Shown here: in pieces, positions 1,558 to 10,215 of the stretch
Numbering within the stretch: position 1 is the stretch's first letter
How the letters are laid out: each line of letters begins with the position of its first letter
Assembly: GCF_008281175.1 (NCBI RefSeq)
Contig: NZ_CP036524.1
Location: 1,116,001 to 1,180,000 of the forward strand
DNA length: 64,000 nt
Direction of reading: 5' to 3'
Source: [Clostridium] hylemonae DSM 15053
Lineage (GTDB): Bacteria; Bacillota; Clostridia; Lachnospirales; Lachnospiraceae
Made by a program: the position numbers and the translations under genes
Notes under the pieces: generated by a model
Seen by the model: only the letters and a program-made list of their open reading frames with translations
The model's database searches: none
What the model was told of the DNA's origin: nothing

Positions 1558-3357
1558 ATGAACTTACTGACAATGGAAGGGGTCACGAAGTCCTATACAG
1601 ACAAGATTCTGCTGGACAAAGTGGACTTCGCGGTCAATGACCATGAAAAGATAGGGATCGTCGGTGTCAACGGCGCGGGCAAGAGTACGCTGCTCAAGGT
1701 CGTGTCCGGCTTGGAGGCGGCGGACGGCGGCAGTGTAAGTTCCGGCAAGAATGTGAAGCTGCGCTATCTGCCCCAGACCCCGGTGTTTGACGGGGGCGCC
1801 ACAATACTGGAGGCGGTTCTGAAAGATAATGCAGACAAAAGTAACGAATGGACGATCGAGAGTGAAGCCAGGGCGATGATAAACCGCCTTGGCCTTCCGT
1901 CCTATGACACAAAAGTGGATACACTGTCCGGAGGACAGAAGAAACGCGTAGCGCTGGCGGGGGCGCTTCTGGCGCCGGTGGAAATACTTGTGCTCGATGA
2001 GCCGACCAATCATCTGGACGGGGCGATGGCCGAGTGGCTGGAGCAGTATTTGATCAGATTTAAAGGCGCTATCGTGATGGTGACACATGACCGGTATTTT
2101 CTGGACAGAGTCGCTACGAGGATCGTGGAGATCGAGCGGGCCAGGCTCTACAATTATCCGGGCAATTATTCGGAGTATGTGAGCCTGAAGATGCAGCGTC
2201 AGTCTATGGAGAACGCGGCCGAGAGGAAGAGGCAGAGCCTGCTTCGTACAGAGCTTAAGTGGCTCGCGCGCGGCGCGCGGGCAAGGTCCACGAAACAGAA
2301 GGCCCACATCCAGAGGATCGAGACACTTAAGGAACAGAGCGCGCCGGAACAGGAAAAGCAGGTTGCCATGAGTTCTGTCTCGTCCCGAATGGGGAAAAAG
2401 ACGATCGAGGTGTCACACATAGCCAAATCATACGGCGGGCGCACTGTGATCGAAGATTATTCTTATATCTTTCTCAGAGATGACCGTATCGGTATCGTAG
2501 GGGAGAACGGGTGCGGCAAAAGTACGCTGCTGAAGATCATTACCGGGAACCTGGCGCCTGATTCAGGTTTTGTGGACATGGGAGAGACCATCAGAGTCGG
2601 TTACTTTTCCCAGGAAAATGAGTATATGGACGACTCGAAACGGGTCATAGATTATGTGAAGGAAGCCGGCGAGTATGTCACGATACCGGAGGGGACGGTC
2701 AGCGCCTCCCAGATGCTGGAGCGGTTTCTGTTTGACGGGGCGCTTCAGTGGAGCCGGATCGAAAAACTGTCCGGTGGAGAGAAGCGCAGGCTGTATCTGC
2801 TCCGTATTCTCATGGAAGCCCCGAATGTACTCGTGCTTGATGAGCCGACGAATGATCTCGATATCCAGACGCTGAATGTGCTGGAGGATTATCTGGACAG
2901 ATTCGACGGCATCGTCATAACCGTATCTCACGACCGGTATTTTCTCGACCGTATCGTGAACAGGATCTTCGCCTTTGAGGGAGAAGGCAGGATCGCCCAG
3001 TATGAGGGAGGCTATTCTGACTATCTTCTCAAAAGCGCCGATGCCGGGGAGGCCGCGGCGCCGGGACCGGAGAGAGAGAAGAAGGCGAAAGAAGAGAGGT
3101 CATGGAAGTCCGGCCCAAAGAAATTAAGATTTACTTATAAGGAGCAGCGGGAATTTGAAGTGATCGATGAAAAGATCGCTGAACTGGAGGAGAATATCGG
3201 TGAGCTGGAAGAGCGTATCACCTTAAATGCCACGAATTCCGCGGCTTTGAATGAACTGATGAAAGAGAAGGAAGAGGCGGAACAGAAACTGGAAGATATG
3301 GTGGAGCGCTGGGTGTATCTGAATGACCTGAATGACAGGATAAACAGCCAGAGTTAG
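1558..3357 (+). CDS. ABC-F family ATPase (Uup-like)
   Basis: The 599-residue protein has two ATP-binding cassettes and no membrane segments, so it is an ABC-F ribosome-associated ATPase rather than a transporter. Walker A motifs are GVNGAGKST (about residue 36) and GENGCGKST (about 315). Signatures are LSGGQKKRVAL and LSGGEKRRLYL, and Walker B motifs are VLDEPTNHLD and VLDEPTNDLD. A charged linker joins the domains. The last 80 residues (ELEENIGELEERI and onward) form a coiled coil typical of the Uup branch. It starts 3 nt after the permease stop, so it is probably cotranscribed, although no purine role is evident. Antibiotic-protection members exist in the family, but the C-terminal coiled coil favours a housekeeping Uup-type factor. 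Confidence 0.85.
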   Translation: MNLLTMEGVTKSYTDKILLDKVDFAVNDHEKIGIVGVNGAGKSTLLKVVSGLEAADGGSVSSGKNVKLRYLPQTPVFDGGATILEAVLKDNADKSNEWTIESEARAMINRLGLPSYDTKVDTLSGGQKKRVALAGALLAPVEILVLDEPTNHLDGAMAEWLEQYLIRFKGAIVMVTHDRYFLDRVATRIVEIERARLYNYPGNYSEYVSLKMQRQSMENAAERKRQSLLRTELKWLARGARARSTKQKAHIQRIETLKEQSAPEQEKQVAMSSVSSRMGKKTIEVSHIAKSYGGRTVIEDYSYIFLRDDRIGIVGENGCGKSTLLKIITGNLAPDSGFVDMGETIRVGYFSQENEYMDDSKRVIDYVKEAGEYVTIPEGTVSASQMLERFLFDGALQWSRIEKLSGGEKRRLYLLRILMEAPNVLVLDEPTNDLDIQTLNVLEDYLDRFDGIVITVSHDRYFLDRIVNRIFAFEGEGRIAQYEGGYSDYLLKSADAGEAAAPGPEREKKAKEERSWKSGPKKLRFTYKEQREFEVIDEKIAELEENIGELEERITLNATNSAALNELMKEKEEAEQKLEDMVERWVYLNDLNDRINSQS

Positions 3358-3360
3358 TCA

Positions 3361-3389
3361 TTGACTCGTACCTTTTCGTGTGATACGAT
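3361..3389 (+). promoter_or_regulatory. Candidate sigma-A promoter of the guanine deaminase operon
   Basis: TTGACT at 3361-3366 and TACGAT at 3384-3389 are separated by exactly 17 nt. Transcription would begin near 3396, about 20 nt before the riboswitch-like aptamer. The position directly after the ABC-F stop codon is consistent with a new transcription unit. Confidence 0.5.
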
Positions 3390-3417
3390 GAAATCAGAAA
3401 AAACAAAAAACATGGAG

Positions 3418-3481
3418 ACTTATATAGGTTCATAATCGGTTGAACGTTTCTACCAACTACCGTAAATAGTTGTCTATAAGT
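3418..3481 (+). promoter_or_regulatory. Purine riboswitch aptamer (guanine-type specificity base)
   Basis: A three-way junction matches the purine riboswitch. P1 is ACTTATA 3418-3424 with TATAAGT 3475-3481. P2 is GTTCA 3428-3432 with TGAAC 3441-3445. J2/3 is GTTTCTAC 3446-3453. P3 is CAACTA 3454-3459 with TAGTTG 3467-3472, and its loop is CCGTAAA. The L2 GG and L3 CC can form the known loop-loop pairs. The ligand-reading base (position 74 in the B. subtilis xpt RNA) is C at 3474, predicting guanine or a related oxopurine. Deviations are T instead of A at the preceding base (3473), G at the end of J1/2 and a short P2. It lies just upstream of guanine deaminase. Confidence 0.8.
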
Positions 3482-3523
3482 ATCCGCAGAGGTAAAAGTC
3501 TGCGGGTATGTGCAGACTTTTAC
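3481..3523 (+). promoter_or_regulatory. Riboswitch expression platform: two mutually exclusive hairpins
   Basis: Hairpin 1 pairs TATCCGCAGA (3481-3490) with TCTGCGGGTA (3499-3508). Hairpin 2 pairs GTAAAAGTCTGC (3492-3503) with GCAGACTTTTAC (3512-3523), a perfect 12-bp stem. They share bases 3499-3503, so only one can form, and hairpin 1 abuts the P1 closing strand. Neither is followed by a T-run. Hairpin 2 ends 6 nt before the Shine-Dalgarno sequence AAGGAGG (3529-3535). The switching mechanism (transcription or translation) is therefore unresolved. Confidence 0.5.
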
Positions 3524-3543
3524 GGAAGAAGGAGGTTTGACCG

Positions 3544-4827
3544 GTGAATGAATCTGTTTTTATTTTACGAGGAGATATCTGCTGCAGCAGGAGCCTGACG
3601 GAGCTTACGGTGCAGAAAGACGGGTATGTCGTATGCAGGGACGGAATATCAGAAGGAATATATGAGCGTCTTCCCGACAGATATAAGGACTGTCCGGTGC
3701 GGGATACGAAGGGGGCGCTCATCTTGCCGGGACTTGTGGATCTGCATATTCACGCCCCGCAGTATACATTCCGGGGGCTTGGAATGGATCTGGAGCTTCT
3801 GGAATGGCTGAATGAGCATACATTTCCGGAGGAGGCAAAGTATGCGGATATCGAATACGCGAAGGAAGCCTACGGAAGGTTTGTGGAGAAGCTTAAGTAC
3901 AGCGCCACAACACGGGCATGTATCTTCGGGACGATCCACGTGCCTGCCACGGAGTATTTGATGGATCTGCTGGAACAGTCGGGTCTTTGTACGATGGTGG
4001 GCAAGGTGAACATGGACCGCAATGCTCCGGATCCTCTTACGGAACAGAGCGCGGATAAGTCGGCTTATGATACGGTGGAATGGGTCAAGGACTGTCTGAA
4101 GCGGTACCGGAAGACGAAGCCGATACTGACGCCCCGGTTTATTCCTACGTGTACGGATGCGTTGATGGAGAATCTGAAAAAGATACAGATGCGGTACGGA
4201 CTTCCGGTACAGTCGCATCTGTCGGAGAACGTAAGCGAGGTGGGCTGGGTGCAGGAACTCTGCCCGGGATCAGAGTTCTACGGGGATGCGTACGACAGAT
4301 TCGGCCTGTTCGGGGCGGATACAAGGACCGTCATGGCGCACTGTGTATATTCCGGCGTGCAGGAGCGCAGGCGGATGAAGGAGAATGGAGTGTTTGCCGC
4401 CCACTGTCCGGAATCAAATATGAATCTGTCGTCCGGGATCGCGCCTGTCAGGGCATTTCTGGACGAAGGAATACCGACAGGGCTTGGCAGCGACGTGGCG
4501 GGCGGAAGTACGGAGGATCTGTTTGCCGCCATGGCCCATGCCATACAGGCATCCAAGCTTCGGTGGAGGCTCGTGGATGATACGTTAAAGCCGTTGACAG
4601 CGGCGGAGAGTTTTTATCTGGCGACAAAAGGCGGCGGCGAATTTTTCGGCAGGGTCGGAAGTCTGGAGGAAGGCTATGAGTTTGACGCTGTCGTTATTGA
4701 CGACAGCGCGGTGTCGGACCGGGAGAAGGCAGAGATATCGGAACGCCTTGAACGGCTCATATATTTAAGCAGCGAGTCAAAGATCACCGGCAAATTTGCC
4801 GCAGGTGAAGAGATTTTCTGGAGGTGA
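3544..4827 (+). CDS. guaD: Guanine deaminase
   Basis: The 427-residue amidohydrolase should hydrolyse guanine to xanthine and ammonia. The metal-site motif LHIHAPQYTFRGLGMDL (about residues 65-81) is characteristic of guanine deaminase, as are PRFIPTC, QSHLSEN, AHCVYSG and GLGSDVAGGS (about 314-323), which supply the remaining zinc and substrate ligands. It starts with GTG 3544, placed 8 nt after AAGGAGG; no ATG is available in frame nearby. It follows the purine-riboswitch-like leader. Its stop codon lies 4 nt before the xanthine dehydrogenase start, which couples guanine deamination to xanthine processing. Confidence 0.93.
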   Translation: MNESVFILRGDICCSRSLTELTVQKDGYVVCRDGISEGIYERLPDRYKDCPVRDTKGALILPGLVDLHIHAPQYTFRGLGMDLELLEWLNEHTFPEEAKYADIEYAKEAYGRFVEKLKYSATTRACIFGTIHVPATEYLMDLLEQSGLCTMVGKVNMDRNAPDPLTEQSADKSAYDTVEWVKDCLKRYRKTKPILTPRFIPTCTDALMENLKKIQMRYGLPVQSHLSENVSEVGWVQELCPGSEFYGDAYDRFGLFGADTRTVMAHCVYSGVQERRRMKENGVFAAHCPESNMNLSSGIAPVRAFLDEGIPTGLGSDVAGGSTEDLFAAMAHAIQASKLRWRLVDDTLKPLTAAESFYLATKGGGEFFGRVGSLEEGYEFDAVVIDDSAVSDREKAEISERLERLIYLSSESKITGKFAAGEEIFWR

Positions 4828-4831
4828 GCAG

Positions 4832-7135
4832 ATGGAGCAGCGCAGGAGAGCAGTGGGAACGAGTGTCAACCGGGTGGACGCATATGACAAAGTGACAGGC
4901 CGGGCCAGATACACGGATGACCTGTGCGGGAAAGAGGCGTATATTGCGCGGGTGGTACATTCTACCGTGGCGAACGGCAGAGTATTGTCTGTGGATAAGT
5001 CGGAGGCAGAGAAGCTGCCGGGTGTTATCCGGGTAGTCTCCTGCTTTGACGTGCCGAAAAATTATTATCCGACGGCGGGCCATCCATGGTCTGTAGAGGA
5101 GGCGCATCAGGATGTGTCGGACCGGCTCATGCTGACGGACCGCGTGCGGTTTTACGGAGATGACGTGGCGGCGGTCGTGGCGGAGGATGAAGTGACGGCG
5201 GCCAGGGCGGCGGGGATGGTGAAGATAGAGTACGAGGAATACCCGTTTGTTCTCGATGTCCGGGAGGCTATGGAAGACGGCGCGCCGCAGCTGCACGAAG
5301 ACTATCCGGGCAATGTGCTGAACCACACAAGTATCCGAAGCGGCAGCTATGAGGAGGCCATAAAGGAGCCGGGACTTATTAAGGTGGAAGGATGGTATGA
5401 TACCCCTTCCGTCCAGCACTGCCACATCGAGAATTTTATCTGTTACGCGTATGAGGCGGATCATAAGATCAACGTGACGTCATCGACACAGATCCCTCAT
5501 ATCGTGCGAAGGGTCGTAGGGCAGGCGCTTGGGATCCCGTGGGGCCGGGTGCGCGTCATAAAGCCGTATATCGGCGGCGGATTCGGCAACAAGCAGGATG
5601 TCCTCTATGAACCGCTCTGCGCTTTTTTAAGTACATTGTGCGGCGGACATCTTGTGAAGCTGGATGTGAGCCGTGAGGAGGCGTTCAACTGTACAAGAGT
5701 GCGCCACGCCATACGCAGCCATATCATATCGTGGGTGAGGCCGGACGGTACATTTGCCGCCCGCAAGCTTACTGCGTATTCCAATCAGGGAGCCTATGCC
5801 TCCCATGGGCACGGCGTTGTCGCAAAGGGGATGGGAGCGTTCCCGCAGCTGTATCCGTGTCCGAATGTGGAGGCGGATTCGTATACGGTCTTTACAAACA
5901 GGCCGGTAGCCGGCGCCATGCGGGGATATGGGATTCCACAGGCCATGTTTGCGGTGGAGAGTCATACAGATGATGTGGCGAAGGCGGTCGGCATGTCCCC
6001 GCTGGAATTCAGGAGAAAGAATCTGATGCCGCAAGGCTATGTGGACGCATTTTCCAAAAATGAAAATTATTTTGACACATTCAATCAATGTATGGCCAAG
6101 GCGGCGGCCTATATGGATTATGACAGGAAGATAAAGGAGTATGACGGGCAGGACGGAAATATCCGCAGGGGCATCGGCCTTGCCGTATTCTGGTATAACA
6201 CGGCCGTATGGCCCATCTCACTCGAGACGTCCTCGTGCAGGATGGTGCTGAATCAGGACGGTTCGATCCAGGTGCAGGTAGGGGAGACGGAGATTGGCCA
6301 GGGGGCGGACACCGCGTTTTCCCAGATGGCGGCGGACGCCCTCGGCATACCGTTTGAGGACGTACATATCATCTCGTCCCAGGATACGGATGTGACGCCG
6401 TTCGGCACGGGAGCGTATGCCTCCAGGCAGACGTATACGGCAGGCTTCTCCATAGAGCAGACGGCGGGGCTTCTGAAAGGACGCATACTTTCCTATGCAC
6501 AGGAACTGACGCGGATGCCTGCAAGCCAGCTTGAGCTGGTGGACGGCGTGATCGTGAGAAAGAGCGACGCCCGTCCGATGATGACGCTGGGAGAGCTGGC
6601 GTCGGAGGCATTGTACAGCTTAAGCCACAGCGAGCATCTGACGGCGGAGAGCACCTATCAGATCAAGAGCAATGCGTATTCCTTCGGCTGCACGATGGCG
6701 GAGGTGGAAGTGGATATTGAGGCGTGTAAGATAAGCCTTATGGACATCGTAAATGTCCACGACTGCGGGAAACTGATCAACCCTGCCCTTGCCCTGGCGC
6801 AGGTGCACGGCGGCATGAGCATGGGGATCGGATACGGCCTGTCCGAGATGGAGAAGTTCGACGCTGCCACCGGGCGGACGCTGAACGGCAATCTGCTCGA
6901 TTACAAGCTGTCCACGGCCATGGACCATCCTCACCTGGAAGGGCAGTTCGTGAAAAATTATGAGCCTACGAGCGCATTCGGCACAAAGGCGCTCGGGGAA
7001 CCTCCGGTCTGTTCGGTAGCGCCTGCCATACGTAATGCGGTGCTCCAGGCGACCGGCATCGGCATAGACCAGATTCCGTTGAATCCACATGTCCTGTTTG
7101 AGGAATTTAAGAAGGGAGGCCTGCTGGATGTATGA
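4832..7135 (+). CDS. xdhA: Xanthine dehydrogenase, molybdopterin-binding subunit
   Basis: This is the 767-residue large subunit of a three-gene xanthine dehydrogenase (molybdenum hydroxylase). It contains the aldehyde oxidase/xanthine dehydrogenase a/b hammerhead domain near the N terminus (VDAYDKVTGRARYTDDL). Cofactor-binding motifs are GGGFGNKQD, GAMRGYGIPQ and QVGETEIGQGADT, and the catalytic-glutamate region is KALGEPPVC near the C terminus. ATG 4832 follows GGAGG at 4820-4824; an upstream in-frame extension to 4796 has no support. The stop overlaps the next gene's start. The subunit hydroxylates hypoxanthine or xanthine, although nicotinate or related heterocycles cannot be excluded from sequence alone. 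Confidence 0.88.
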   Translation: MEQRRRAVGTSVNRVDAYDKVTGRARYTDDLCGKEAYIARVVHSTVANGRVLSVDKSEAEKLPGVIRVVSCFDVPKNYYPTAGHPWSVEEAHQDVSDRLMLTDRVRFYGDDVAAVVAEDEVTAARAAGMVKIEYEEYPFVLDVREAMEDGAPQLHEDYPGNVLNHTSIRSGSYEEAIKEPGLIKVEGWYDTPSVQHCHIENFICYAYEADHKINVTSSTQIPHIVRRVVGQALGIPWGRVRVIKPYIGGGFGNKQDVLYEPLCAFLSTLCGGHLVKLDVSREEAFNCTRVRHAIRSHIISWVRPDGTFAARKLTAYSNQGAYASHGHGVVAKGMGAFPQLYPCPNVEADSYTVFTNRPVAGAMRGYGIPQAMFAVESHTDDVAKAVGMSPLEFRRKNLMPQGYVDAFSKNENYFDTFNQCMAKAAAYMDYDRKIKEYDGQDGNIRRGIGLAVFWYNTAVWPISLETSSCRMVLNQDGSIQVQVGETEIGQGADTAFSQMAADALGIPFEDVHIISSQDTDVTPFGTGAYASRQTYTAGFSIEQTAGLLKGRILSYAQELTRMPASQLELVDGVIVRKSDARPMMTLGELASEALYSLSHSEHLTAESTYQIKSNAYSFGCTMAEVEVDIEACKISLMDIVNVHDCGKLINPALALAQVHGGMSMGIGYGLSEMEKFDAATGRTLNGNLLDYKLSTAMDHPHLEGQFVKNYEPTSAFGTKALGEPPVCSVAPAIRNAVLQATGIGIDQIPLNPHVLFEEFKKGGLLDV

Positions 7136-8012
7136 TATAAAAGCCTTATATGAGGCGGAAAATATATCGCATGCAATTCAATTACTGGAGGAACACCCGG
7201 ACGCCAGAGTGATCGCTGGAGGAAGCGATATTCTGATCAAGATACGGGAGGGAAAGCTGAGACAGCCGGAGCTCGTGAGTATCTACGGTCTTGACGAACT
7301 TAGGGGCGTCAGCGTAAAAGAGGGTGGGACACTGCGCATCGGCTCGCTCACAAGCTTTTCCCACATAACAAAGAATCCGCTCATACAGAAGCATATACCG
7401 GTGCTCGGCGAGGCGGTCGATAAAGTGGGCGGTCCCCAGATACGAAATATCGGGACGATCGGCGGCAATACGTGCAACGGCGTCACATCTGCCGACTCTG
7501 CGTCCACTCTTTTTGCATATGACGCGCAGGTGGAACTGGCCGGGCCGAAGGGAGTGCGCACCGTTCCTGTCCAGGAATTTTATATCAAGGCAGGAACCGT
7601 GGATCTGCAGCACGGGGAGATAGAGACTGCCATACTGATACGAAAAGATTCCTATGAAGGGTACGCCGGACATTATATCAAATATGCCATGAGAAATGCG
7701 ATGGACATTGCAACGCTTGGCTGTTCCGTGAACGTTAAACTTGCAGCCGGCGGGAAGCATCTGGAAGATGTGCGGATCGCGTTTGGCGTGGCCGGCCCCG
7801 TACCGCTTCGCTGTCCGGCGGCAGAGCAGGCGGTGAAGGGAAGGGCGGCAGGCGAAGAGACGTATAGACTGGCTGCTGAAGCCATCCTTCAGGATATCCA
7901 TCCAAGGGACAGCTGGAGGGCAAGCAGGGCATTCCGGGAACACATCTCGCAGGTGCTCGTCAAAAGAGCGCTTGCGGAGGCAGTGCTGCGGGCGGGAGGT
8001 GAAGCGCGGTGA
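7128..8012 (+). CDS. xdhB: Xanthine dehydrogenase, FAD-binding subunit
   Basis: The 294-residue subunit has the FAD-binding fold of molybdopterin dehydrogenases. VIAGGSDILIKIREG near the N terminus and GGPQIRNIGTIGGNTCNG contact FAD, and a CO-dehydrogenase flavoprotein C-terminal domain follows. ATG 7128 overlaps the large subunit's stop and has GGAGG 8 nt upstream. It passes electrons from the Fe-S subunit to NAD or another acceptor. The order large-FAD-FeS is the same as in E. coli xdhABC. Confidence 0.9.
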   Translation: MYDIKALYEAENISHAIQLLEEHPDARVIAGGSDILIKIREGKLRQPELVSIYGLDELRGVSVKEGGTLRIGSLTSFSHITKNPLIQKHIPVLGEAVDKVGGPQIRNIGTIGGNTCNGVTSADSASTLFAYDAQVELAGPKGVRTVPVQEFYIKAGTVDLQHGEIETAILIRKDSYEGYAGHYIKYAMRNAMDIATLGCSVNVKLAAGGKHLEDVRIAFGVAGPVPLRCPAAEQAVKGRAAGEETYRLAAEAILQDIHPRDSWRASRAFREHISQVLVKRALAEAVLRAGGEAR

Positions 8013-8527
8013 ATGATAACAGATATGGAGGAAGGACGGCTTTGGAGAGACAGTACAAACATGTACGATGTACGATCAATGGCAAAGCGGTGGAGACTAT
8101 GGTCGATGTGCGCGCTTCCCTGACAGATCTGTTGAGGAACGACTATCATCTCACGAGTGTGAAAAAGGGCTGCGAGGTCGGTGAATGCGGCGCCTGCAAT
8201 GTGATCATAGACGGCGAGTGCTATAACTCCTGCATCTATCTCGCCGTGTGGGCGGACGGAAAAGATATCCGCACGCTGGAAGGGCTCATGGGCCCGGACG
8301 GAGAACTGTCCGATATCCAGCAGGCTTTCATAGACGAGGCTGCCGTGCAGTGCGGCTTCTGTACCCCCGGGTTCATTATGAGCGCCGTGGAGATACTCGA
8401 GTCGGGCAGGGAGTATACGAGAGAAGAATTGAGGAAGCTGCTGTCCGGCCATCTGTGCAGATGTACCGGTTATGAAAATATTCTGAACGCGGTGGAAAAG
8501 ACGATGAAAAAACGGCTTTCACTGTGA
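8009..8527 (+). CDS. xdhC: Xanthine dehydrogenase, [2Fe-2S] subunit
   Basis: This is a 172-residue iron-sulfur subunit. The plant-type ferredoxin cluster ligands lie in GCEVGECGACN and the following Cys of GECYNSC. The second, helical cluster ligands lie in QCGFCTPGF (about residue 113) and GHLCRCTGYENI (about 148). The GTG at 8009 overlaps the FAD-subunit stop (GTGA) and follows GGAGG; a TTG at 8042 is a possible alternative start. This E. coli-style xdhC name denotes the Fe-S subunit, not the XdhC maturation factor whose tail opens the window. A rho-independent terminator follows 26 nt later. Confidence 0.9.
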   Translation: MNDNRYGGRTALERQYKHVRCTINGKAVETMVDVRASLTDLLRNDYHLTSVKKGCEVGECGACNVIIDGECYNSCIYLAVWADGKDIRTLEGLMGPDGELSDIQQAFIDEAAVQCGFCTPGFIMSAVEILESGREYTREELRKLLSGHLCRCTGYENILNAVEKTMKKRLSL

Positions 8528-8601: not shown

Positions 8602-10170
8602 CTACTGTCCGTCGCCGGACAGCATCTGTTTTTTCATATCTAATATCATAAAGGAGAGCTGCAGCCGGAAAATAGTCTGCGCGTCGCCAAAATCCAGGCC
8701 GGTCATCTCCACGATCCTGTTTATCCGGTACTTCAGTGTGTTATAGTTCAGATACATCTTCTTGGAGGCCGCGGAGATTTCGGTGCCGTTGTTGATGTAT
8801 CCCCGTATCGTATCGAGAAAAAGCTCCCGTTTATCGGCGTCCATCTTTAATATGTCCGATATGGCCGGATGCACGAGATAATTCAGCGATTCCCTGTCCG
8901 CGTAATTTAAAAATATGTGCTGGAGAAGGTAATCGGAATATTTGACGATCCGTTCTTTGTGGTGCAGCTTCCATGAGGTGTTCAGGGCGGATACCGCCTG
9001 GGAAAACTGTTCCGGCAGAGAGTAAAGATTTTTACACGTGTAGCTGATGCCGGCGCGGCAGTTCTGCTTTTCCAGCAGATTGGCGAACTGCCTCTCATCC
9101 GATTCGGAAAACAGGGTGTCTGTCTTTGTGTCAAACACGGCGACGAGATAGCCTTTATAGTAGATGATCGTATTTCTGGCAAGAAAGTTCTGAAGGACTC
9201 TTTTCAGCATATAGACTTTGCTGATATCCTGCATATAGTCTTCCGTCAGTTCGATCACGAGGAGAGTGATGTAATCATAAAGTTTGATATTAAACTGATG
9301 GATGCGTTCCTCGACCGCGTCCTCGTCATACAGCTTTTCGTTCAGCAGGGCGATGAAAAATGACTCGGCGAGCGGAGAACTTGGCGTGTAAGTATTGGTG
9401 GATTCCAGTAAAAAATACAGGATACAGTTGCCGAGCGCCTCCACGATCTCCTGATCCGATCCGGAGATCGGCTTGTTGAGCGCCAATACTTTCAGATATG
9501 CCAGCGGCTTGCCGTTATCATTTATTTTATACACAAGCTGATTGTGGTTTAGAATACCCTTTTCCCAGATGAAATCATTTCTCGGAGAATCAGAGTTCAA
9601 GTCCTCCATCATATCCATATGGATCTGTTCTATGTACTGATCGGATACATATCCCCGGCTCAAGGTCCACTCCCACAGCGGCTCCTGGCTGGAACTGTTG
9701 CCGCCTGCGTGGGCGATAAAACAGAGGGAAACGTCCACAAGAAGAAGCGGGTTCCCGAGTATCTCATATCCAAGGTCCATCAGTTCCTGTAAGGTCGTCT
9801 TGCTTTTTTTGACTTTCAGCAGTTTTAATATATTTTTTGAAGTGTGCACCTCTTCCTCCAGAAGCTTCCACACGGTGTTGCATAGCAGATGCGTATCAGC
9901 GCTTTCCGACACAGTGACAAGAGTACATCCTGCTTCCGGCCGGAGATAGGATTCCGGGACGTCACTGCCGGCGACGAGAAAGGAAATCCGTCCTACAGGA
10001 GGAATATCGGGCAGTTCTTCAGCCCGCCCTATAAAAAGCACGCCCTGTTCCGCGGAAAGCTCTTTTCTGCTGAAGAGGCGAACGGCCGAGATTGGATAAC
10101 CGCAGTCCTGCACTATGTCCGGAGAGTATCGTTCCAGTTCTTTTACCAGTTCTTTAAGTGTTAATGTCAT
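8602..10170 (-). CDS. PucR-family transcriptional regulator
   Basis: The 522-residue regulator begins with a PucR N-terminal sensory region (TLTLKELVKELERYSPD), carries a central GGDEF-like/CdaR-type segment and ends in a PucR C-terminal helix-turn-helix (SAASKKMYLNYNTLKYRINRI, about residues 470-490). Members of this family control purine and other catabolic operons. ATG 10170 is chosen because it has a purine-rich AAAGGGGG upstream; the longer frame from 10203 lacks a site. It faces the xdh operon and is divergent from the MFS/flavin-enzyme cassette, so either could be its target. Inverted repeats in 10216-10305 are candidate binding sites. Confidence 0.8.
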   Translation of the reverse strand: MTLTLKELVKELERYSPDIVQDCGYPISAVRLFSRKELSAEQGVLFIGRAEELPDIPPVGRISFLVAGSDVPESYLRPEAGCTLVTVSESADTHLLCNTVWKLLEEEVHTSKNILKLLKVKKSKTTLQELMDLGYEILGNPLLLVDVSLCFIAHAGGNSSSQEPLWEWTLSRGYVSDQYIEQIHMDMMEDLNSDSPRNDFIWEKGILNHNQLVYKINDNGKPLAYLKVLALNKPISGSDQEIVEALGNCILYFLLESTNTYTPSSPLAESFFIALLNEKLYDEDAVEERIHQFNIKLYDYITLLVIELTEDYMQDISKVYMLKRVLQNFLARNTIIYYKGYLVAVFDTKTDTLFSESDERQFANLLEKQNCRAGISYTCKNLYSLPEQFSQAVSALNTSWKLHHKERIVKYSDYLLQHIFLNYADRESLNYLVHPAISDILKMDADKRELFLDTIRGYINNGTEISAASKKMYLNYNTLKYRINRIVEMTGLDFGDAQTIFRLQLSFMILDMKKQMLSGDGQ

Positions 10171-10215
10171 ATTAATACGCCCCCTTTCTTCTGAATATAA
10201 CATTCATTATTCGTG

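Follow-up and report, generated by a model that had tools for sequence, protein, structure and literature searches.

A guanine-type riboswitch upstream of a guanine-degradation operon, with a putative terminator across the guaD start codon

The guaD–xdhABC operon of [Clostridium] hylemonae DSM 15053 is preceded by a purine riboswitch that we interpret as a guanine ON switch of guanine catabolism, in which the OFF state would be an intrinsic terminator that spans the start codon of guaD, with the start also masked. We assign this interpretation a probability of about two in three; guanine as the ligand, the ON direction and termination as the main output are its inferred components. In the proposed mechanism the aptamer would fold first. 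With guanine bound, P1, P2 and P3 would be held, hairpin 2 would form and the guaD start would stay free. If guanine is absent, the aptamer would be displaced by hairpin 1 and afterwards by the Shine–Dalgarno (SD) and start region as these emerge, the J1/2–P2–L2 strand pairing with the end of the SD, the start codon and codons 2–5. This would create a long hairpin ending exactly at a U-tract in codons 5–8, that is, an intrinsic terminator across the start codon, and in transcripts escaping termination the start would be masked. The features are listed in Table 1 by their positions in the window, by which we mean the whole 64 000-nucleotide stretch of DNA that was analysed.

Table 1. Positions of the riboswitch, its predicted alternative structures and the operon in the window
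Feature	Position	Strand	Details
Promoter-like TTGACT-17-TACGAT	3361-3389	+	TG before -10; consensus scan alone, 2 found versus 0.8 expected
Purine aptamer core	3418-3481	+	P1 3418-3424/3475-3481; P2 3428-3432/3441-3445; P3 3454-3459/3467-3472
Aptamer junctions	J1/2 3425-3427; J2/3 3446-3453; J3/1 3473-3474	+	Read from sequence
Aptamer loops	L2 3433-3440; L3 3460-3466	+	Read from sequence
OFF helix, 5' arm	3424-3445 (3424-3433 + 3435-3445)	+	End of P1, J1/2, P2 and L2 strand
U73	3473	+	Pairs with A3516 in predicted OFF fold; A in most purine riboswitches; variable in relatives
Hairpin 1	3480-3490/3499-3509	+	Takes P1 3' strand; part of OFF fold
Hairpin 2	3492-3504/3511-3523	+	Aptamer-compatible; part of ON fold
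Shine-Dalgarno AGGAGG	3530-3535	+	Sequence
OFF helix, 3' arm	3535-3557 (3535-3545 + 3548-3557)	+	SD end, GTG start, codons 1-5
guaD GTG start codon	3544-3546	+	Inside OFF helix
U-tract UUUUUAUUUU	3557-3566	+	guaD codons 5-8; directly behind OFF helix, which ends at 3557
guaD	3544-4827	+	Guanine deaminase-like amidohydrolase, 427 aa; TIGR02967 and PF01979
xdhA	4796-7135	+	Molybdenum-binding subunit; start probably ATG 4832; NF043082, 1202 bits (cut-off 780)
xdhB	7089-8012	+	FAD subunit; start probably ATG 7128; NF043083, 439 bits (cut-off 310)
xdhC	8009-8527	+	Iron-sulfur subunit; NF043084, 262 bits (cut-off 217)

The genes downstream would form the pathway from guanine to xanthine and on to urate. 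The initial annotation had placed a guanine-degrading operon here, and profile matches to XdhA, XdhB, XdhC and a GuaD-like amidohydrolase bear this out; the guaD product scores 347 bits against TIGR02967 (E = 1e-103), just under the cut-off of 375. The association recurs in the bacterial family of the host, where guaD lies downstream of 43 of the 111 purine aptamers with an assigned gene. Two neighbours deserve mention. An ABC-F (ribosomal protection-like) gene occupies 1558–3357, between a pbuX-like permease (100–1554) and the riboswitch, and a gene for a PucR-type regulator (8602–10203, minus strand) converges on xdhC and may provide a further level of purine regulation.

Identification of the aptamer is secure. 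A covariance search of the window matched RF00167 (Rfam Purine) at 3400–3496 on the plus strand with 55.8 bits (E = 7e-7) against a gathering score of 37 bits, so that the search proposed in the initial annotation, which had judged the aptamer convincing, lies above threshold. It is the sole RNA family match in the 64 kb, and no other purine aptamer was found elsewhere in the 3.83 Mb genome. J1/2 consists of U3425, A3426 and G3427, the last being position 24 in xpt numbering; P2 is short, at 5 bp; J2/3 reads GUUUCUACC from 3446, without insertion; and J3/1 is U3473 (position 73) followed by C3474 (position 74). The peculiarities remarked on earlier, namely T at 3473, a J1/2 ending in G and the short P2, are therefore all as read in the sequence. 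Over 31 relatives, 99.1% of the cells in the P1/P2/P3 junction are paired, above every slid control, and four pairs have changed on both sides. The leader probably starts at about 3396.

When 3414–3575 is folded alone the aptamer is not kept. The predicted fold has −54.8 kcal/mol (z −5.0; none of 200 shuffles as stable) and contains a long helix, the OFF helix, between the aptamer and the start of guaD. Other pairings in the OFF fold join L3 (3460–3466) to 3519–3525 and G72-U73-C74-U75 to 3514–3517, and hairpin 1 forms. The duplex between the aptamer and the guaD start has −23.4 kcal/mol, which none of 200 shuffles equals. Its own complement apart, the best complement of the aptamer segment on either strand of the 64 kb is the guaD start; this and the z-score of the fold argue that the OFF helix is not a product of chance. 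The computed unpaired probability of the SD at this locus is 0.20 without ligand and 0.55 with the aptamer forced.

We were able to follow this helix through related genomes. Protein similarity gave 80 guaD loci, and a purine aptamer precedes 62 of them by no more than 700 bases. The start class, as we term those in which the aptamer pairs with the start, comprises 39 loci including that of the window and has a short leader of 86–100 nt from G46 to the start (119 nt in L090). All 39 pair with the start, at −13.3 to −25.6 kcal/mol, with 0–6 of 200 shuffles as good, whereas in most guaD loci with longer leaders the duplex is no stronger than in shuffles (L132–L134 and L161 are intermediate at −11.9). 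In guaD homologues without an adjacent aptamer the complement is mostly missing (−3.0 to −13.4 kcal/mol); an Rfam scan of nine such loci found an aptamer about 1.7 kb upstream in two and none in the rest. An alternative route, a start-pairing scan of the first 82 aptamers of the family, used a 330-nt search space, in which noise prevented short helices from being ranked.

The OFF helix has twelve core pairs, and across 35 distinct start-class sequences not one of their cells departs from standard pairing. Given 31 sequences, RNAalifold finds the helix without prompting; 97.8% of its cells are paired there, compared with 13–45% when slid. From the start codon on, the five paired positions that vary show pair-keeping changes only, despite the replacements M1V, N2S, E3G, S4P and I5V. 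The exchange of ATG and GTG preserves a U-A or U.G pair, and the unpaired coding position +3 has an A-to-T transversion. Third positions have zero entropy in codons 2–6, set against mostly 1–1.8 bits in codons 12–40. Ranked by pairing among their synonymous versions, the real codons 2–5 fall on average within the best 3.3% and are never first, one to four slightly better-pairing versions existing per locus. Two-sided covariation in the helix is thin: a single pair shows it, changing from C-G to A-U in two loci that are related. The comparison establishes the aptamer, the OFF helix with the U-tract behind it, and selection acting on the helix. By the same comparison, the start-pairing platform is present in Lachnospiraceae that include Dorea sp. 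D27, Faecalicatena, Mediterraneibacter and Muricomes, among others.

Conservation at the start of guaD might instead come from an operator in the DNA or from a peptide signal at the N-terminus, in which case pairing with the aptamer would be a by-product; the PucR-type regulator gene nearby speaks for this reading. We regard this as very improbable. The changes tolerated are only those compatible with G.U pairing, the pairing persists through amino-acid replacements, and guaD genes that have other platforms or lack an adjacent aptamer do not show the conservation.

Directly behind the helix, codons 5–8 of the start class read (A/G)UU UUU AUU UUA. The tract or a near copy occurs in 40 of 40 start-class loci, with 8.8 T in 11 positions where codon usage predicts 6.4, and its leucine is encoded by TTA or TTG in all 40, as against 13% elsewhere in the gene. 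The tract is not shared by guaD genes that have another platform or lack one. The layout is that of an intrinsic terminator, a stem followed at once by a U-tract. The base of the stem is not G+C-rich: the ten pairs beside the tract are mostly A-U and G.U, with two or three G-C. Such an A-U-rich stem with G.U pairs is weaker than that of a classic terminator and counts against termination. A terminator scan of 3300–3700 found none, and the region before the start is empty because the stem and U-tract reach into the open reading frame. The initial annotation had noted two mutually exclusive hairpins without a T-run. The hairpins exist and neither is followed by one; the T-run lies within the reading frame, behind the long-range helix. 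Its suspicion of a non-standard expression platform was well founded, the proposed platform being a helix between aptamer and start with a U-tract in codons 5–8.

Our own first reading was purely translational and was revised because codons 5–8 form a conserved, class-specific U-tract directly behind the helix. The earlier reading survives as the most serious competitor, although we consider it unlikely, with odds of about one in four. In it the same helix would act only by masking the start codon and SD, in the manner of Vibrio add, and the U-rich codons 5–8 would ease translation initiation without causing termination. The start codon does lie inside the helix in all relatives, accessibility shifts as this would require, and the proximal stem is A-U rich. 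However, pairing is poorly conserved over the SD and perfect deep into codons 2–5, up to the U-tract; the tract is of U, not merely A/U rich, and specific to the class; and the sister switches on guaD are mostly terminators. We therefore prefer termination across the start codon with masking as its accompaniment.

The two mutually exclusive hairpins appear, in the folding model, to be steps of one strand exchange, hairpin 1 towards OFF and hairpin 2 towards ON. The computed probability of P1 depends on the 3' end of the RNA: it is 0.99 at 3485–3500, 0.03 at 3510, where hairpin 1 is complete, 0.98 at 3524, where hairpin 2 is complete, and 0 once the end reaches 3536 or beyond. With the end at 3556, OFF leads by 15 kcal/mol, and across folds OFF is favoured by 5–23 kcal/mol, with ligand and loop–loop contact uncounted in either figure. 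Since OFF is energetically ahead, the switch would have to be kinetically controlled, as in pbuE. Two genus mates carry, by eye, a compensatory change in hairpin 2.

Hairpin 2 is compatible with the aptamer and its 3' arm ends in UUUUAC, and an OFF switch could be imagined in which guanine stabilizes P1 and hairpin 2 serves as a weak terminator (GUCUGC..GCAGAC-UUUU). We rejected hairpin 2 in this role and rate such a switch as hardly credible. The U residues lie inside the stem and are replaced in genus mates (CUGCUAC in L086, CUGCUGA in L085), the terminator scan detected nothing here, sister loci are built as ON switches, and repression of catabolism by its own substrate makes little sense.

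Several lines point to the ON direction that the initial annotation had expected of a catabolic operon. Computed over the start class, the mean unpaired probability of the start region is 0.15 unliganded and 0.51 with the aptamer forced, the corresponding averages for the SD being 0.27 and 0.50. Outside this class, most guaD/xdh loci have a T-run in the leader preceded by an arm complementary to aptamer strands. The arms are directed mostly against the P3 5' strand and L3 (AACUACCG with CGGUAGUU-UUUU) and in L024, L048, L050, L073, L090 and L149 against J3/1–P1. Pairing of the leader terminator arm beats all but at most ten of 200 shuffles in 45 of 68 loci, a set that includes some start-class loci. 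Because the folded aptamer excludes the terminator, ligand should turn the sister loci ON, and this predicted direction is the one expected for breakdown of the ligand.

Two sister arrangements are instructive in themselves. L090 and L048 (Faecalicatena faecalis) combine a leader terminator (CUUAUAGUCAUUUUUUU) with a start-codon helix and U-tract, and are possibly two-step or transitional. In L164 L3 is changed (CUACCUUAAU) and the terminator arm in the leader, AUUAAGGUAG, matches it; this natural compensation supports the aptamer-captured terminator.

The pocket bases U22, U51 and C74, the ligand contacts of guanine-I switches, are all kept, as judged from the sequence and the Rfam alignment, and we infer a guanine-type (guanine-I) riboswitch with guanine as the predicted ligand. 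The residue at position 74 is C3474, not the U of adenine riboswitches. Xanthine-II riboswitches are defined by U51G with insertions in J2/3 and J3/1, and none of these is seen in J2/3 (GUUUCUACC) or J3/1 (UC); nor does the same sequence have the one-base J2/3 insertion and other xanthine-II-like changes of guanine-II.

The odd bases in J3/1 and J1/2 had been taken as a hint of another ligand, and a switch to xanthine, urate, hypoxanthine or another purine would draw on U73, G24 and the catabolic operon. The gene association is atypical, and xanthine-II switches occur on similar genes (PMC9295807). Positions 24 and 73 stack on one another in the known structure of add, where A73 lies on one side of position 24 and the C54-G72 pair on the other (PMC9588036). 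As the final base of J1/2, position 24 is also part of the P2 tune box, which varies in nature and affects ligand-binding properties as it does so (PMC7707468). Against this, the pocket is unchanged and the two positions vary freely in the family while guaD stays. Among 107 purine aptamers of the family, a few rows of which were mis-parsed, position 73 is A, T, G or C in 71, 20, 9 and 7 cases and position 24 is T, A or G in 41, 38 and 28. On the GuaD protein tree, N73 has switched between A, T and C at least eight times while the downstream gene remained the same. The OFF helix, moreover, accounts for G24: J1/2 ends in G because G24 (G3427) pairs with C3554, a G-C pair in 31 of 31 relatives, and position 24 is G in 39 of 39 start-pairing guaD loci versus 1 of 23 other guaD riboswitches. 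We also considered, by eye, covariation of N73 with the terminator strands (A73-U in L090, U73-A in L157, C73-G in L066) and set it aside, as it leaves most N73 changes unexplained. On the sequences at hand G24 and U73 may tune affinity and do not indicate a new ligand; a changed ligand strikes us as improbable, and we retain guanine.

The riboswitch resembles guanine-I members of RF00167, the xpt-pbuX type, in its three-way junction, the U22/U51/C74 pocket and the residues of the L2–L3 contact (GG, CC). It differs in that a catabolic operon lies downstream, an ON switch is predicted, and A73 and A24 are replaced; the guanine-I switches known so far mostly act as repressors of synthesis, salvage or uptake (PMC9295807, PMC11477304). 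The adenine riboswitch of B. subtilis pbuE is a transcriptional ON switch, as is proposed here, and its terminator arises when strand exchange invades the aptamer and P1 and P3 are lost (PMC7707468). In our model, by contrast, the captured arm is the 5' half of the aptamer (J1/2, P2, L2), the 3' arm is the start-codon region and the U-tract is within the open reading frame. In V. vulnificus add the SD and AUG are sequestered without ligand and freed by it (PMC5847336, PMC8342710), as is predicted here. The masking P4 domain of add, however, begins with the P1 3' strand (nts 76–81), whereas here the J1/2–P2–L2 strand pairs with the start and codons 2–5, and a U-tract follows.

Xanthine-II and guanine-II riboswitches share the guanine-type scaffold and are predicted ON switches (PMC9295807). 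The former are associated with purine degradation genes and carry U51G with insertions in J2/3 and J3/1, and the latter have a J2/3 insertion (PMC9295807); all of these features are absent here. The xanthine-I (NMT1) riboswitch is also associated with purine oxidation genes, some of them guanine deaminase-like (PMC7373994), but its fold is unrelated, and the Rfam search gave no match to it in the window.

The purine riboswitch family and the guanine-I pocket are thus known. Within the open-access literature we found no paper on a purine riboswitch associated with both guanine deaminase and xanthine dehydrogenase, and provisionally we regard as new the start codon in a terminator stem with a U-tract in codons 5–8, the guanine-I ON switch on guaD and the breadth of the arrangement in Lachnospiraceae. 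The expression platform is left out of the Rfam purine alignment (PMC10907184), so that a platform reaching into codons is easily missed, and a reader who seeks a T-run only before the start codon will conclude that there is none.

We lean, by a little over even odds, towards a broader proposal: that across dozens of Lachnospiraceae the ligand-free purine riboswitch of guanine deaminase itself is the terminator, built from a J1/2–P2–L2 arm, an arm of the start and codons 2–5 and the U-tract of codons 5–8, with one helix stopping both transcription and translation and an N-terminus shaped by RNA. If this is true, a single RNA strand would serve under three constraints, as ligand pocket and P2, as terminator arm and as complement of a coding sequence, and the first residues of the enzyme would be set by RNA pairing. 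A guanine ON switch for guanine breakdown would then be common in gut Lachnospiraceae. The system would also lend itself to a clean test, since regulation should fail when codons are replaced by synonymous ones.

The survey brought to light further purine riboswitches in unusual settings. In L178 tandem purine aptamers lie upstream of guaD (G312:C5:124712-124810 and 124878-124974); the first has its own aptamer-complementary terminator, and J3/1 seems to be longer by one base in both. L032 and L012 (G164:C4:35336, 36886) are purine riboswitches separated by about 1.5 kb. One precedes guaD, the other the gene for the Mo subunit of xanthine dehydrogenase, and the second has a one-base J3/1 insertion. 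At 401–500 of L180 (G347:C1:1615679-1615782), upstream of a fused xdh FeS-FAD gene in a Lachnospiraceae genome, is a purine-like aptamer that resembles xanthine-II riboswitches, having U51G (GUUUUGACC) and an insertion in J3/1. Finally, the purine riboswitch of L174 (G328:C59) precedes a monomethylamine methyltransferase-like gene (MtmB), an unexpected association.
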